Below are positions 5,596 through 32,544 of a stretch of DNA of 64,000 nucleotides, piece by piece. Position numbers and translations under genes: made by a program. Origin of the DNA: Trachythela sp. YZ-2020 (Eukaryota; Cnidaria; Anthozoa; Malacalcyonacea; Clavulariidae); NCBI GenBank assembly GCA_016169945.1, contig JADLSH010000333.1:806001-870000 (forward strand). The letters run 5' to 3'. The notes under the pieces were generated by a model that saw nothing but the letters and a program-made list of their open reading frames with translations, did no database searches and was not told the DNA's origin. Within the stretch, counting starts at the first letter, position 1, and each line of letters begins with the position of its first letter.

Positions 5596-5601
5596 CACAT
5601 G

Positions 5602-5834
5602 TATGGTGTCCGAGGAGAGACATCGACATTTTTAACATTTTTGTTTCACCTCTACATTTGTTTGCATTTAATTTACATTGAATTTATTTGTATTTTCAAA
5701 ATTTAACTTAATTTTGTTTTTATTTTGTTTTTAATGATTTGAAAAACGTTTCAATTCAATTGGTTTTATTTTAAAAATTAAAATTGAAAATATCTCCGAG
5801 AAGAGACACACATAAAATTAACCCGCTGACCATT
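5602..5834 (+). repeat. Left terminal inverted repeat of the alpha-kinase transposon
   Basis: It pairs with 7273-7508 over its whole length with only scattered mismatches and small indels. It is very A+T-rich in the middle. The inner edge (GCTGACCAT) is the last clearly shared sequence. A repeat this long and well preserved suggests fairly recent movement or TIR homogenisation. Confidence 0.9.
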
Positions 5835-5891
5835 ATTGTCCCTATACGGCGCATGCTCTCTCCAGTCTCTCGACAACAGTACGCTGAAAAC

Positions 5892-6745
5892 ATGGCGGAC
5901 GAAGAAAACATGGCAGCAAAAAGGACAAGAAAAACAGAGAAAAACAACGCTAGAAAGGGTAAAGATCGGCCTTTACCAGAAAAATTAACAATTCAACGAT
6001 TATCAGCGCAAGTTAAAGGATCTTCCCAAAAGTATGCAAGGATGGGGCCTTTAAAAAGAGTAGATGTTTTGGAAGAGGACATGTGTGCACCACCAACTAT
6101 CGATATTGTGAGAAGGGCTTGTATTGCTGGTTTCAACTTGAAGGGTTTTGATTGTGATTTACTGGAGACTGAGCGAGGACCATCTATCGAAAGTCTAAAC
6201 GAGATCAAGAATTTAAATGGCACGATTTTTGTCAGATTCACTCACAAACAATATACTGTTGGTGAATTTGTTGGTGAATCGGATGAAGAAGATGGGAAAT
6301 CAGTGCCCCTAGAGTCATTAGAGTCACTAGAGTGCAAACGTCCACCTACAAAACGTAAGTCTAGCCATACCAAACAGCAAAATTCTGAACCATTGAAATC
6401 CAGTGATACAAAGTCAAAGAGATCCTTCCCTCCTTCTTTGTCAGTGGCAACAATGCTAAATATGGGAAAGCTGATCAAGCCTGCAAAACGTGATACAATC
6501 CAAGTAGAAATTGAAAGCTTTGAAGTCAAGAATGGGTGGACTGTGGCAAAACTGTAACGTTCTCAGTGGAGAGTGAGAGTTTTGCTGAAGGGGGCTTCAG
6601 AAAGGCTTACAAGTGTGAAAGTATTGATGGAAAATTGCCTGGCAAGTGGGTATTGAAGAAGTATAAAGAAAATTCCCTTGAAGATATGAAGTCTCTCAAC
6701 ATAACAGAAGAAGAACATGCATACAATGCAATGGGAAACGTCCAA
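5892..6745 (+). pseudogene. Alpha-kinase domain protein, 5' part
   Basis: The start at 5892 (MADEENMAAK) sits in AAACATGG just inside the TIR. The N-terminal 215 residues are Lys- and Ser-rich with no domain I know. From about 6525 the sequence fits the start of an atypical alpha-kinase (myosin heavy-chain kinase/eEF2K/TRPM7 type): VTFSVESESFAEGGFRKAYK, then GKWVLKKYKE with the candidate ATP-binding Lys, then ITEEEHAYNAM. A one-base loss in the A run at 6548-6551 shifts the frame at the start of the domain. The zinc-binding and catalytic C-terminal half is missing because of the internal deletion, so this copy cannot encode an active kinase. The intact parent element presumably does. Alpha-kinase identity is from motif recognition. 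Confidence 0.7.
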
Positions 6746-7217
6746 TTCTGAAAACCCATCAACTTGTCATGCCCATCCAAACTCCAAACCCAGTTGACAC
6801 CGTTTGTAACAAAGTTTCCTTTCTTCTGTTTACTTTTGTTACATGGCTTTCTTTCTTCTAGACCATCTGGGTCGTATTCGCACATCACATCATTTACCAA
6901 ATCATGAGGCACTTTGATATTGTGAACCATTCGAAGTTTCTTTGTCATTGCTCTTACCCCAAGAAGTTTCCAGGTCCTTCAAGTTCATTTTCAACTGCAT
7001 TTTTCACATCTTGCAAAGGAGTGTCGTAATTTATGTAGTTAATGTTAAAATGGCGCAGTCGACGATCAAGAGTTTTCGTACATCCCCATGCATATTGTGG
7101 GAACTGCTTTTTCATAACAATAAGAATTTCACTCCTCTGATACGCTTTCTTAACCAAGGATTCAAGTTGAAGTCTTAAACTTTCATCGTTCTTCCATTCA
7201 GTTGCTTGGGAGGCCAT
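6720..7217 (-). pseudogene. DDE integrase-like transposase, 5' part
   Basis: ATG at 7217 (MASQATEW, context AAAATGG). An N-terminal helix-turn-helix-like part (residues 10-65) is followed by EGPGNFLG. After a one-base shift at the C run 6957-6960 comes VRAMTKKLRMVHNIKVPHDL, DPDGLEERK and then VNWVWSLDGHDKLMGFQNW, which holds the first candidate catalytic Asp of an integrase-core fold. I recall this organisation from animal and fungal 'integrase core domain' proteins. The ORF breaks off at the deletion junction shared with the alpha-kinase gene. The GGGGTAAGAG at the frameshift also resembles a splice donor, but coding resumes immediately, so a frameshift is more likely. It presumably mobilised this TIR family. 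Confidence 0.65.
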
Positions 7218-7629
7218 TTTGATTTGTTTAGTTTGTTTATTCAAAGAATGTGAGCCCGCAAATATGCATGCTATGGTCAGCGGTTAATTTTACGTGTGTC
7301 TCTTCTCGGACATGAGATATTTTCAATTCTAATTTTTAAATTAAAACCAATTGAATTGAAACGTTTTTCAAATCATTAAAAACAAAATAAAAACAAAATT
7401 AAGTTAAATTTTGAAAATACAAATAAATTCAATGTAAATTAAATGCAAACAAATGTAGAGGTGAAACAAAAATGTTAAAAATGTCGATGTCTCTCCTCGG
7501 ACACCATACACATGCCTTTTGGTATAATTTATTCCTCCCATAATTCCTAGTAGCCACACCCTGCCCCCAATGGTCCCATGTTTGGATTTGATTGGAAAAT
7601 AAATATATTGTATATACAGTAGCTATGAA

Positions 7630-7822
7630 CCAGACTGGAAACTTTGCAGTGTGCACGGAAGATCTTCCGTGCGCACCCAAAAGTTTAGGTGCGCAAAATA
7701 CTATATCTGCAAGTGTCAAGTGCGCACTTGGCCTGTGAAAGATAAAAATATTAAGTGTTGGGTGTGCAAAATTTTGTGAAATAAAGTTCTCCTGTGCGCA
7801 TGTAACAAAGTTTCCAGTCTGG
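7630..7822. mobile_element. 193-bp MITE with perfect 17-bp TIRs and 8-bp target duplication
   Basis: CCAGACTGGAAACTTTG at 7630-7646 is exactly inverted at 7806-7822. GCTATGAA flanks both sides (7622-7629 and 7823-7830). The interior contains several GTGCGCAC-type palindromes. The 8-bp duplication points to hAT (Merlin is an alternative). Confidence 0.9.
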
Positions 7823-7830
7823 GCTATGAA

Positions 7831-13916: not shown

Positions 13917-14880
13917 AGTTGAAAGATAAATTTCACATGAAAGACCTAGGTAGGCTTTCATACTTCTTACGGCCGTTGACTGTTGTGTAAAACTACCTGA
14001 AAAATTACAACGAACTTTGACATTTTGAGCTAATGCCCTTCATCTGGAAGTTAGTGAAATAACTAACTTCCAGATGAAGGGCCTTCACTCAAAACGTAGA
14101 AGTTCTCATTGTATTTTTCAGGTAGTTTTACACAACAGTCAACAGCCGTATTTGCTATACTCTTCCCACACTGGCACAGCATTTTCATATTTCCTAGGTA
14201 TAAGGTTTCAGCAAGGGGCAGATTATGTCAAAATGAACCATAGGAGGTATTTTACAAAGCTTCTGGAGAGATTTGAAATGTCTGACTACCCCTTCAGAAC
14301 AAAAATTAGAGTGTGCTGGTGAAAATCTTGCTGATCCTCGGAAATATTGTGAGCTCATTGGTAGTTTGATCTGTGCAATGACATGCACTCGACCTGATAT
14401 ATGTTGGATAATCACAACATTATCACAGTATTGATTGGTTATAGTGATGCTGATTGGGCATCTTCCACCCATTACAGATGAAGTATTAGTGGGTATTGTT
14501 TCAGTTTAACCAGAACAGGACCTTTGATTTATTGGAAATCAAGGAAGGAACACACTTTTGCCCTTTCATCTTGTGAAGCAGAATATATTACTTTAGCAGC
14601 AACAGTTCAGGAAGCCTCATATCTAGCACAGTTATTAGATAAGATTATCAAAATAGCTAGTCCAGTATAATCAGGGTGTGATTGCTTTATCTAAATATCC
14701 CAATAACCCTAAGAGGTCAAAACATATAGATGTTCAGTATCATTTTATTCATTCAACCATAAACACAGGTAAGGTGATTGCATGTTATTGTCCTACTACT
14801 GAAATAATAGCGGATATTATGGCTAAGTCAGCAACACATTGTAAGTTACAAAAGTTTAAAAACTTTTGGCCATTTTGGTC
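13917..14880 (+). pseudogene. Ty1/copia RT end and RNase H
   Basis: After KLKDKFHMKDLGRLSYFL the frame is interrupted by a MITE (13970-14183) and resumes with YFLGIRFQQGADYVKMN. Then come LADPRKYCELIGSL, MTCTRPDICW, GYSDADWASS (RNase H first Asp), SGYCFSLTRTGPLIYWKSRK, SSCEAEYITLAA (RNase H Glu) and, in another frame, RSKHIDVQYHFIHSTINTGK and CPTTEIIADIMAKSAT. This is the C-terminal order of copia Pol. It carries several frameshifts and stops. I could not define LTRs. Confidence 0.75.
13970..14183. mobile_element. Hairpin MITE inserted in the copia RT
   Basis: A long near-palindrome (arms about 80 bp, 13970-14148, pairing GTTGACTGTTGTGTAAAACT with its complement) plus an extra tail (GCTATACTCTTCCCACACTG). 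The flanks TTTCATACTTCTTA (13956-13969) and TTTCATATTTCCTA (14183-14196) look like a 14-bp target duplication with two differences, and the copia frame continues across it. A relative lies inverted at 16632-16775. Confidence 0.65.
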
Positions 14881-14992
14881 TGCGTTGCATAAACGCCAGC
14901 GGTGTGCGACAGCCGCTACGTCATTTTCTTGTATTTTATGTCCGATGTCAAAATAAAAAGATGGCGGATCATAAAAGCATTTTTGAATGTGT

Positions 14993-15587
14993 GATGTTTG
15001 GTGCTTTTACTCAGGCAGAGTCAGAGCTCAGAAAAAAACAACTTGGACAAATTAGAATTAGCGAAAGCACTTAAAGAACTTTGACAACTCATGCAACCGG
15101 TGGCAAATGGCCATTTCGACATCGGTTTAATTTTGGTGTTGGAAATTTTGTTCCGATTCTTAATCGTACGGTGAATCAGTGGTATAAACAATTCTTGCGA
15201 TGGATGGGAACATGTTGTAGTGTAAATAATCCATGGAAAGTTGTTCTTGATGTTGTTATTCCTGTGGAAATATTTACTATCCTTAAAGACATTGTGAGCG
15301 AGTCAAATTTTGGACTATACACCCATGAGACAAGGGGAACAAGGTCAACTAAGAAAAGATGTGTAATGGCTTTTACTTGTCGTCTTCGTGTGGCAAATTT
15401 GTTTTTGAGATTAATGCAATCTGACTTGCCAGAAGAGGATTTTCTAAGAAAAACCTTTAAAAGCATTCAAGCAATTATTACTGATGAGAAACAGTTTGGA
15501 ATCACGTATAACTATAACAAAGAGATATGTACATTTGATTTCTTTTATGGCTTTTGGAATGACCATGGTTTTCCGCAACATTTGTAG
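14993..15587 (+). CDS. Orphan ORF downstream of the copia element
   Basis: From ATG at 14993 (MFGAFTQAESELRKK) the frame runs to TAG at about 15587 with a single in-frame TAA near 15072; after it, 168 codons are open. Composition is protein-like: RHRFNFGVGNFVPILNRTVN, WMGTCCSVNNPWKVVLDVV, RGTRSTKKRCVMAFTCRLRV, FDFFYGFWNDHGFPQ. No domain is recognised, and no signal peptide or membrane segment is evident. The single stop suggests a recently broken gene or a sequencing or assembly error. It could belong to the transposon at its left or be independent. Confidence 0.4.
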
Positions 15588-15599
15588 TGAAATGTGCGC

Positions 15600-16260
15600 A
15601 TAATGTGTGTATATATAGTACTGTTGATTAACTCATTCAAAATCTTTAAATTCTGTTATTGATATTAAAAGCCACAATCATGGCAAATGTTATGAGGTGT
15701 GACGCGAAATCTCTGACCTGCAAAATCTCTGACTTTTGTATTTCTGCTCATGCGCAAAGATATGCATGATTGATTTTTGCTCATAAATTTCGCAAGTGTT
15801 CAAGCTACAGAGAAACGTGTGTCTTAAAAGCTTTCTTTACATGTTTAATCGTTGTTAAATGGCTAATTTTACAACCGAGACTGACACTGCCTGTGTCAAC
15901 ATTGCATCGACAAAGCCTACAACAAAGATGAATAAACACAAGGTATGTAGAACTTTGAATTTTATAGCGATGAGATTGTTGGTATTTATATATCAGTTGT
16001 GTTGAACAGATGACAGTCAGGACACTTTGCATTTTATTTTCTTTCGTATTTTGAATGCCAAGGAGAAAGATCATTTACTAGCAGTGTTAACATGGTTAGT
16101 TTATTAAAAAATGTTCTTGGTATGTCATAAAAATAGGTTTCTTTGCAAGATGTTCTTGAGTCAGGACGCCAGTCGCCAGATGCCTGCACACTTAGAAAAT
16201 CTGAGCAAAATTAACCTTGGGGCCTACGTGCAGCATAGTCAAATAATGTAATTTTTTTGT
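15600..16260. other. Mostly non-coding; possible small first exon at 15858-15932
   Basis: ATG at 15858 opens 25 codons (MANFTTETDTACVNIASTKP) that end at a donor AAG then GTATGTAG. It could be the first exon of the PHD-finger relic that follows. Near 15702-15730 the motif GCGAAATCTCTGACCTG occurs twice in tandem and returns inverted at 18199-18250. Confidence 0.3.
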
Positions 16261-16278
16261 TATAGTGGATGAAATGCA

Positions 16279-16400
16279 GGTGTCTGCAAAATCTGCAGGA
16301 AAGATGATGGGGATGACTGATGTGGTAAATTTTTCCATGCAAACTGCATTGGTGTGGACTTTGCAACTGCCCTTGCAGAAAACTTTTATTGTAATAGACA
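16279..16400 (+). pseudogene. Broken PHD finger
   Basis: The frame starting 16279 reads VCKICRKDDGDD, stop, CGKFFHANCIGVDFATALA, ENFYCN. This is the PHD-finger zinc ladder: C-x2-C, a C-G pair, H-x2-C and a last Cys. A premature TGA sits where the second Cys-x2-Cys region should begin, and a few residues (typically W/L-x-CD) are missing. PHD fingers read histone tails, and cnidarian transposon proteins often end in one. This copy cannot be functional as it stands. Confidence 0.6.
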
Positions 16401-16420
16401 ATATCAGTTATTATAAAGTG

Positions 16421-16596
16421 AATTGTGGTTCACAAAATGTCAGAGAGTGCTCAAATATATATCATAAAGATAGAGCAAATATACAAGGTTACAGGAACTT
16501 CCTGTGTTATGTTTGCCTGAAGATTCTATTTTATATTTATCTCTATCTTCATGATATTGAACACTCTCCGACTTTTTGGTGAACCACAATTACCAA
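16421..16596. repeat. Imperfect inverted repeat (hairpin MITE)
   Basis: Arms of about 54 bp (16421-16474 and 16542-16596) pair AATTGTGGTTCAC and AGAGAGTG with a few mismatches and small gaps around a 65-bp centre. No target duplication was found. Confidence 0.6.
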
Positions 16597-16631
16597 TACC
16601 CTTTAATTGTAAATATCTCAAACGTGTGGTG

Positions 16632-16775
16632 CCAGTGTGGGTAGGGTATAGCAAATACGGCGGTTGACTGTTGTGTAAAACTACCTGAAAAATACAATGA
16701 GAACTTCAACGTTTCGAGGAAGGTCCTTGGTCTGGAAGTTAGTAGAATGGGTCGGGGGAAAACATGTGCTTTTAT
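16632..16775 (-). mobile_element. Second copy of the hairpin MITE family at 13970
   Basis: GTGCCAGTGTGGG, GTATAGCAAATACGG and GTTGACTGTTGTGTAAAACT run in the same order as the complement of 14040-14180. Downstream sequence differs, so only one arm is preserved. Confidence 0.65.
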
Positions 16776-31385: not shown

Positions 31386-32544
31386 CACAGGCATCCCAAG
31401 CTCACATTGTTGCTATTTAATTTTTTTTTTATTAATAATTTTTTATTATTGCTGTTTGTATTTTATGGTATATTATGTGTATGTGTTCTGTCTGTTATGT
31501 TATGTGCCAGAAATGGTACGATGGAATTAAATATATATTTATTATTGATGGTTAGGGTACTTCATATTAGCAAATTATAGTAGACTTAATAGTCAAATAT
31601 ATATTGCTAAAATATTGTGTCAAATGTAGAAATAAAGTTACTTACTTCTACTACAAGTTGCAATCGACTTTTCGGTGTTGACTTGGTGTGATTTTAAATC
31701 CACTTTGAGGGGATGGTATCATGTTATGAGGGGATGGTAAGGCAGGTAAATATAGCTCAATGCACATCAGTCTTCAGCAACACAAGAGATTTGTTCAGAA
31801 AATCCATAATTTGTTCGATTTTCTGACAATCTCAGGCTCCGTGGCTGTCGACACCTGAGGATATTCAGTTGAGAGCTTGCGAGTTCGAATTACACTCTCT
31901 ATTGTTATTGGTTGATTACAATTCGAACTCGCGAGCTCTCAACTGAATATCCCCGGGTAACGACAGCCACGCTGCCTGAGATTGTCAGAAAATCAAACAA
32001 ATTATGGATTTTCACCGACAAAAAATCTCTTGTGTTTGCTGAAGACGATGAATGTGATGTGAAATGTAATGGGCTTTATGGATCTGTTTTTTTTTTTGGC
32101 GATTCGATGCATTATTATGCGATGCGAGAAGAATTTGTGAAGCCGATGCGAGTTCGTTGGAGCTATATTTACCTGCCTTCTCCTTAATATTACATAGAAT
32201 ACCATCCCCTCAAAGTGGATTTAAAATCACACCAAGTCAACACCGAAAAGTCGATTGCAACTTGTAGTAGAAGTAAGCAACTTTATTTCTACATTTGACA
32301 CAATATTTTAGCAATTTTTTGACAATATATATTTGACTATTAAGTCTGCTATAATTTGCTAATATGAAGTACCCTAACCATCAATAATAAATATATATTT
32401 ACAAATAATTCCATCATACCATTTCTGGCACATAACATACATAACACATACACATAATATACCATAAAATACAAACAGCAATAATAAAAAATTATTAATA
32501 AAAAAAAAATTAAATAGTAACAATGTGAGCTTGGGATGCCTGTG
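31386..32544. mobile_element. 1.16-kb foldback (near-palindromic) transposon
   Basis: The left arm (31386-31891) and right arm (31920-32544) are inverted copies around a 28-bp loop. The ends read CACAGGCATCCCAAGCTCAC. ATACAAC (31379-31385, 32545-32551) flanks both sides as a 7-bp target duplication, an eighth base matching by overlap. The insertion splits a LINE, whose coding reads across the empty site. The right arm is about 110 bp longer because the left arm has lost a segment inside the ORF region. The outer 170 bp of each arm are very A+T-rich. Superfamily uncertain; 7-8 bp duplications fit hAT or P-like elements. Confidence 0.9.
31912..32187 (+). CDS. ORF inside the right arm of the foldback element, unknown
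   Basis: About 91 codons with no in-frame ATG early (the first codon of the open frame is TTG; the first ATG lies about 55 codons in). Content looks protein-like: IRTRELSTEYPRVTTATLPE, KLWIFTDKKSLVFAEDDECD, CNGLYGSVFFFGDSMHYYAM, REEFVKPMRVRWSYIYLP. The left arm carries a decayed, shortened inverted copy. It may be an exon captured by the element or a relic of its own protein. No family recognised. Confidence 0.35.
   Translation: MITIRTRELSTEYPRVTTATLPEIVRKSNKLWIFTDKKSLVFAEDDECDVKCNGLYGSVFFFGDSMHYYAMREEFVKPMRVRWSYIYLPSP

Follow-up and report, generated by a model that had tools for sequence, protein, structure and literature searches.

A transposon of about 4-5 kb in the genome of the anthozoan Trachythela sp. 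YZ-2020 carries, between long terminal inverted repeats (TIRs), two inward-facing genes, one encoding an integrase-like transposase of the DD(38)E type and the other an alpha-kinase. The copy from which we started lies in the window, that is, the whole 64,000-nucleotide stretch analysed here (contig JADLSH010000333.1, positions 806,001 to 870,000), and is very probably a non-autonomous, internally deleted copy of an IS3EU-type cut-and-paste DNA transposon whose parent has two genes. At the level of sequence, the conserved gene order, the co-divergence of both genes and an invariant active site support the view that the kinase belongs to this transposon clade as a permanent gene under constraint and is not transient cargo.

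The deleted copy in the window

The window element spans positions 5602-7508 (1907 bp). Its left TIR (5602-5833, plus strand, 232 bp) starts with TATGG and its right TIR (7273-7508, minus strand, 236 bp) ends with CCATA, both arms being 96.2% identical, and a perfect 6-bp target site duplication (TSD), CACATG, is found at 5596-5601 on the left and at 7509-7514 on the right. Since an inverted repeat of 232 bp at 96% identity comes together with a matching 6-bp flank, we do not regard the pair as a product of chance. These measurements bear out the TIRs of about 235 bp and the CACATG flanks that had been described in a first-pass annotation of the same DNA.

The 5' part of the alpha-kinase gene occupies 5892-6720 on the plus strand and covers a basic N-terminus, a possible ubiquitin-like domain, a linker and the start of the catalytic domain. 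It is read as a plus-strand open reading frame (ORF) at 5775-6557, with its first ATG at 5892, and resumes in another frame at 6524-6751. The frame is thus broken near 6.55 kb, and the catalytic domain starts after the frame change and is cut at 6720/6721. The 5' part of the DDE transposase gene lies on the minus strand (6722-7217), is divided between two frames (ORFs 6954-7283 and 6607-6978) and stops just past the first catalytic Asp. Both fragments end at this single junction (6720/6721), as the first-pass annotation had noticed. CA is common to the two junction sides, and about 2.4 kb is absent there relative to a fuller copy, L043. The window copy encodes neither complete protein and would rely on other copies.

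Taken alone, the kinase and transposase pieces of the window had no Pfam match above cut-off. Among the homologues scanned, all of which are partial proteins, PF02816 (Alpha_kinase) was matched by 4 of the 5 kinases, and 1 of the 4 transposases was over the cut-off of PF24764. The closest named relative of the kinase ORF is P0001 from Paramuricea clavata, with 76% identity, which points to an octocoral as the host; P0001 and the L043 kinase share 86%.

Three other repeat structures were seen in the window. First, immediately to the right of the IS3EU copy (7622-7830), a 193-bp TIR element at 7630-7822, CCAGACTGG..CCAGTCTGG, is flanked by 8-bp GCTATGAA copies; it resembles a hAT-type miniature element. 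Second, a foldback about 1.16 kb long at 31386-32544 is made of nested inverted repeats, with four arm pairs of 90-117 nt that are 91-99% complementary. Third, two 90-nt inverted repeats (94% complementary) lie 2.45 kb apart at 14088-16718, with similarity continuing outwards, and possibly delimit another TIR element.

Other copies and genome-wide pairing of the two genes

By using the left TIR as a query against the host genome (578 Mb, 396 contigs), we obtained 12 matches that correspond to six elements, the one of the window included, so that the TIR pair is also found at other sites. L044 (contig C255) is 99.6% identical to the window element over its whole length and has the same deletion junction, at its own site and with its own duplication (TAGGAG). 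Its transposase is split in two ORFs like that of the window, and its kinase frame is intact past the window's break (ORF of 325 aa). Because this junction recurs in L044 at another locus and next to another TSD, the deleted form itself has transposed; the two copies descend from a common deleted ancestor and were presumably mobilised in trans by other copies. L045 (CATTTG), L046/L047 (CTATAG) and L048/L049 (CACTAC), each with its own duplication, are relatives that are either rearranged or longer.

L043 (contig C19) is the closest fuller copy. Both its genes are open and convergent, with an ORF of 425 aa for the transposase and one of 481 aa for the kinase, PF02816 is matched with 112.6 bits (cut-off 21.3) and PF24764 is also over its cut-off. 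No TSD is seen in L043 because its right TIR has lost the outer part. Between its two genes (L043:2490-3211), we observed several hairpin-like inverted repeats, which are perhaps nested miniature elements. L050, from another family, is complete in every respect that we read, with both ends, a TSD, and a kinase ORF (450 aa) convergent with a transposase ORF (423 aa). The two-gene parent that the first-pass annotation had proposed, with an alpha-kinase inside one TIR and an integrase-like gene inside the other, is therefore found with both genes open in L043 and L050, and the kinase is present in the fuller relatives of the window copy.

Five elements of further families (L050, L051, L053, L055 and L056) measure 4.0-5.4 kb and have TATGG..CCATA ends and perfect 6-bp duplications. 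The kinase of L051 and the transposase of L055 are each spread over two ORFs, and the transposases of L053 and L056 match in several pieces. In total, these ends with a perfect 6-bp TSD were found by script in 8 of 10 sources, extra matches inside the TIRs of L053, L054 and L055 (mostly self-complementary 6-mers) being discarded, and by eye in two more elements; all ten TSDs are different. In L052 and L054, the script found no TATGG ends with a TSD, although L054 does have long inverted arms. The TIRs were 221-394 bp long in all eight elements measured, and no ORF of at least 150 aa besides the transposase and the kinase was seen in the elements read. In most copies read, the kinase consists of one uninterrupted frame, while several kinase-bearing families (L056, L062-L067) seem to have an intron near residue 272 of the transposase (numbered as in L043).

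Then, we searched the genome for both genes. The kinase P0001 gave 95 matches (the best 94 of 391 candidates scored), the L043 transposase 116 (the best 103 of 1501 candidates scored) and the Pfam alpha-kinase profile 150 (the best 150 of 232 candidates); for PF24764, the best 150 of 1659 candidates were retained. The merged set holds at least 156 kinase loci and at least 99 transposase loci, these genome counts being lower bounds. Among these best matches, a kinase was found within 6 kb of the transposase at 61 of the 99 loci, where a simple density estimate predicts 0.32. The two genes were convergent at 60 of these loci and on the same strand at one. Counted from the kinase side and without the Pfam matches, a transposase was found within 6 kb at 42 of 90 loci, all 42 convergent, and not at the other 48. 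Since only the best-scoring candidates were covered, the searches may explain part of the unpaired transposase and kinase loci.

Pairing depended on the identity of the transposase to the L043 query. A kinase accompanied 61 of the 81 loci at 36% identity or more, with no kinase found within 6 kb at the remaining 20, and none of the 18 loci at 30-36%. The best 150 PF24764 matches (of 1659 candidates) have no overlap with the 99 transposase loci and appear to form a separate, numerous transposase lineage. A kinase lies within 10 kb of none of these 150 (0.81 expected), within 20 kb of three (1.62 expected) and within 50 kb of nine (4.05 expected). The contrast of 61/81 with 0/18 and 0/150 indicates that the kinase is a property of one transposase clade, and the two latter values that PF24764 (rva_4) transposases need no kinase in general. 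In two 5-kb stretches around kinase-free rva_4 genes (L057 and L058), we found no inverted repeats of at least 20 bp spaced by at least 1.2 kb.

Relation to described IS3EU elements

As far as sequence features can assign them, the elements described here fit published descriptions of IS3EU in their ends, the length of their duplications, their TIRs, the kind of transposase and the order of the genes. According to the available text of PMC10045372, the IS3EU/GingerRoot superfamily has TA..TA ends, usually a 6-bp TSD and an integrase-like DDE transposase. We found the same combination, with 6-bp TSDs and TATGG..CCATA ends in ten elements, TIRs of 221-394 bp and a PF24764 DDE transposase; a kinase is present here, whereas that text mentions none. 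Ginger1, for which the same text gives a TSD of 4 bp, differs from our elements in this respect.

The closest match is with fungal elements. In the accessible part of the report by Kojima (2025; PMC12730594), fungal IS3EU families have TAYGG..CCRTA ends, a 6-bp TSD and TIRs longer than 30 bp, and all TET+ families carry a TET/JBP gene between a transposase and an alpha-kinase in opposite orientations. All these features except the third gene are also seen in our elements, the kinase being opposite to the transposase at 60 of the 61 paired loci. As far as that part of the report goes, the differences are that the host here is an animal, that the TIRs are 221-394 bp long and that no third ORF of at least 150 aa is seen. 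Since this arrangement was thus already reported in fungi, the suggestion of the first-pass annotation that no described superfamily carries an alpha-kinase does not hold, whereas its two-gene reading does. Styx of Zymoseptoria (PMC10853768, in the portion available) is also related to IS3EU, has a 6-bp TSD and includes copies that are mobilised although their transposase is degenerate, but it has four coding sequences, none of them stated there to be an alpha-kinase. In a literature search judged mostly from titles and abstract openings, with few subscription journals, we found no report of animal IS3EU alpha-kinases.

Constraint on the kinase and its possible roles

The element kinase has the alpha-kinase fold, with TRPM7 (1ia9) and MHCK-A (3lkm) as best PDB matches. 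It shares their fold and their catalytic and zinc residues, which we aligned to MHCK-A, but the identity over the fold alignment is about 20%, the N-terminal part differs and the element kinase is encoded by a transposon. For this N-terminal domain, the fold matches obtained with VIA and Foldseek were middling and no family is claimed; a ubiquitin-like (beta-grasp) domain is possible.

In alpha-kinases, a lysine binds ATP, Asp-x-Gln-Gly and an aspartate are catalytic, and two histidines and two cysteines bind zinc. The ATP lysine, the Asp-x-Gln-Gly motif, an Asp-Pro and the four zinc ligands (His/His/Cys/Cys) are unchanged in all 14 kinase families, for which representatives were hand-picked from the identity table. 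The dN/dS values given below come from 21 kinases, without L002, L004-L010 and L016; of 21 loci read first, L027, L028 and L029 were left out (ORFs below 380 aa), and L054, L055 and a 314-aa piece of L051 took their place. On the transposase side, D170 and D234 are present in 13 of 13 alignments and E273 in all 7 of the 13 that reach it, the other six stopping just before it at an apparent exon end.

Kinase and transposase also diverged together. In a Mantel test on 13 pairs, corresponding to the families for which both gene sequences were available, six of the transposase stretches being retrieved for this test, the correlation was r = 0.736, a value reached by none of 5000 permutations. When three close relatives were left out (10 pairs), r was 0.769, a value reached by 8 of 5000 permutations.

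A profile search with the kinase retained 32 proteins of 4871 candidates, Paramuricea clavata being the sole named organism, and no fungal relative was recognisable among them. We also considered two other origins of the gene. A viral source was rejected after the kinase alignment had been run against IMG/VR, where 41 pattern matches yielded no confirmed case (records near the window's genome were possibly left out). A capture of a host gene specific to the window locus is ruled out by the existence of 14 kinase families.

The cut-and-insert chemistry of DDE transposases is established. From this chemistry and the duplications seen, the transposase would bind the TIRs, excise the element and insert it with a 6-bp staggered cut. 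The transposase gene starts about 56 bp, and the kinase gene about 59 bp, inside the inner TIR edges. Because both genes start at a similar distance inside near-identical TIRs, these probably act as matched promoters and allow joint expression of the two genes. The kinase may then phosphorylate the transposase or partner proteins and so control the element's own transposition, with its N-terminal domain picking the substrate. Given that the kinase is constrained and travels with the transposase, the role that we infer as most likely, with about an even chance, is control of mobility by way of the transposase or of proteins that work with it. More broadly, a protein kinase could be a core and ancient part of an animal and fungal transposon clade, long kept beside the transposase, co-expressed from the matched TIR promoters and required for turning the transposase or a host factor on or off; we put this forward tentatively, at somewhat less than an even chance.

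Alternatively, the kinase could serve in anti-silencing or host manipulation, by phosphorylating host factors of silencing, stress or translation and thereby keeping the element expressed. We consider this possible but lean against it. It would agree with the TET/JBP gene of TET+ fungal IS3EU, which the accessible part of PMC12730594 places between transposase and alpha-kinase and proposes to counter silencing. Other rva_4 transposases, moreover, seem to do without a kinase, which is also in its favour. Myosin heavy chain kinase, eEF2 kinase and ALPK1 are among the alpha-kinases of known structure. However, co-divergence with the transposase would be expected equally or more if the transposase is the substrate.

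That the kinase is a neutral passenger trapped in one lineage seems improbable. The 20 close transposase loci (of 81) at which no kinase was detected within 6 kb are consistent with it, as is the movement of the window copy and of L044, neither of which has a complete kinase, but three observations argue otherwise. First, the catalytic and zinc residues are invariant in all 14 families despite an identity of 30-62% between kinases of different families (13 pairs compared). Second, synonymous sites between families are saturated while dN is 0.32-0.55 in the 30 pairs listed. Third, the orientation is kept at all but one of the paired loci. The dN/dS comparison across copies that the first-pass annotation had suggested was workable within families only: the ratio was 0.24-0.87 in 8 close pairs with few changes each, and 2 more close pairs had no synonymous change. 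Between families, saturation defeated it, and a single pair of 210 fell inside 0.3 < dS < 2.5, with a ratio of 0.32.

Finally, a segmental inversion, or a host kinase gene standing beside a transposon fragment by chance, would be suggested only by the window taken alone and can practically be discarded, being ruled out by the TIR copies at other sites and by a gene arrangement that recurs genome-wide. In the kinase tree, moreover, the three genes of this genome that score best against PF02816 stand apart on a long branch of their own.

The pairing of a transposase with an alpha-kinase was already known from fungal IS3EU, as the available part of PMC12730594 describes. What is new here is the animal lineage, the co-inheritance of both genes, the constraint on catalytic residues, an N-terminal domain that is possibly ubiquitin-like, and the kinase-free PF24764 lineage as a contrast. 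There is also a consequence for annotation, in that P0001 of Paramuricea clavata, a kinase of the element type, is labelled as a TRPM6-like channel. Likewise, the alpha-kinase expansion reported in rust fungi, according to the accessible text of PMC4469406, may consist of transposon copies. If the kinase is indeed a core component, these elements would represent a cut-and-paste transposon with built-in phospho-regulation. With many kinase copies, 14 families with intact active sites and the kinase-free PF24764 lineage for contrast, the function of a signalling enzyme beside a transposase is now testable.
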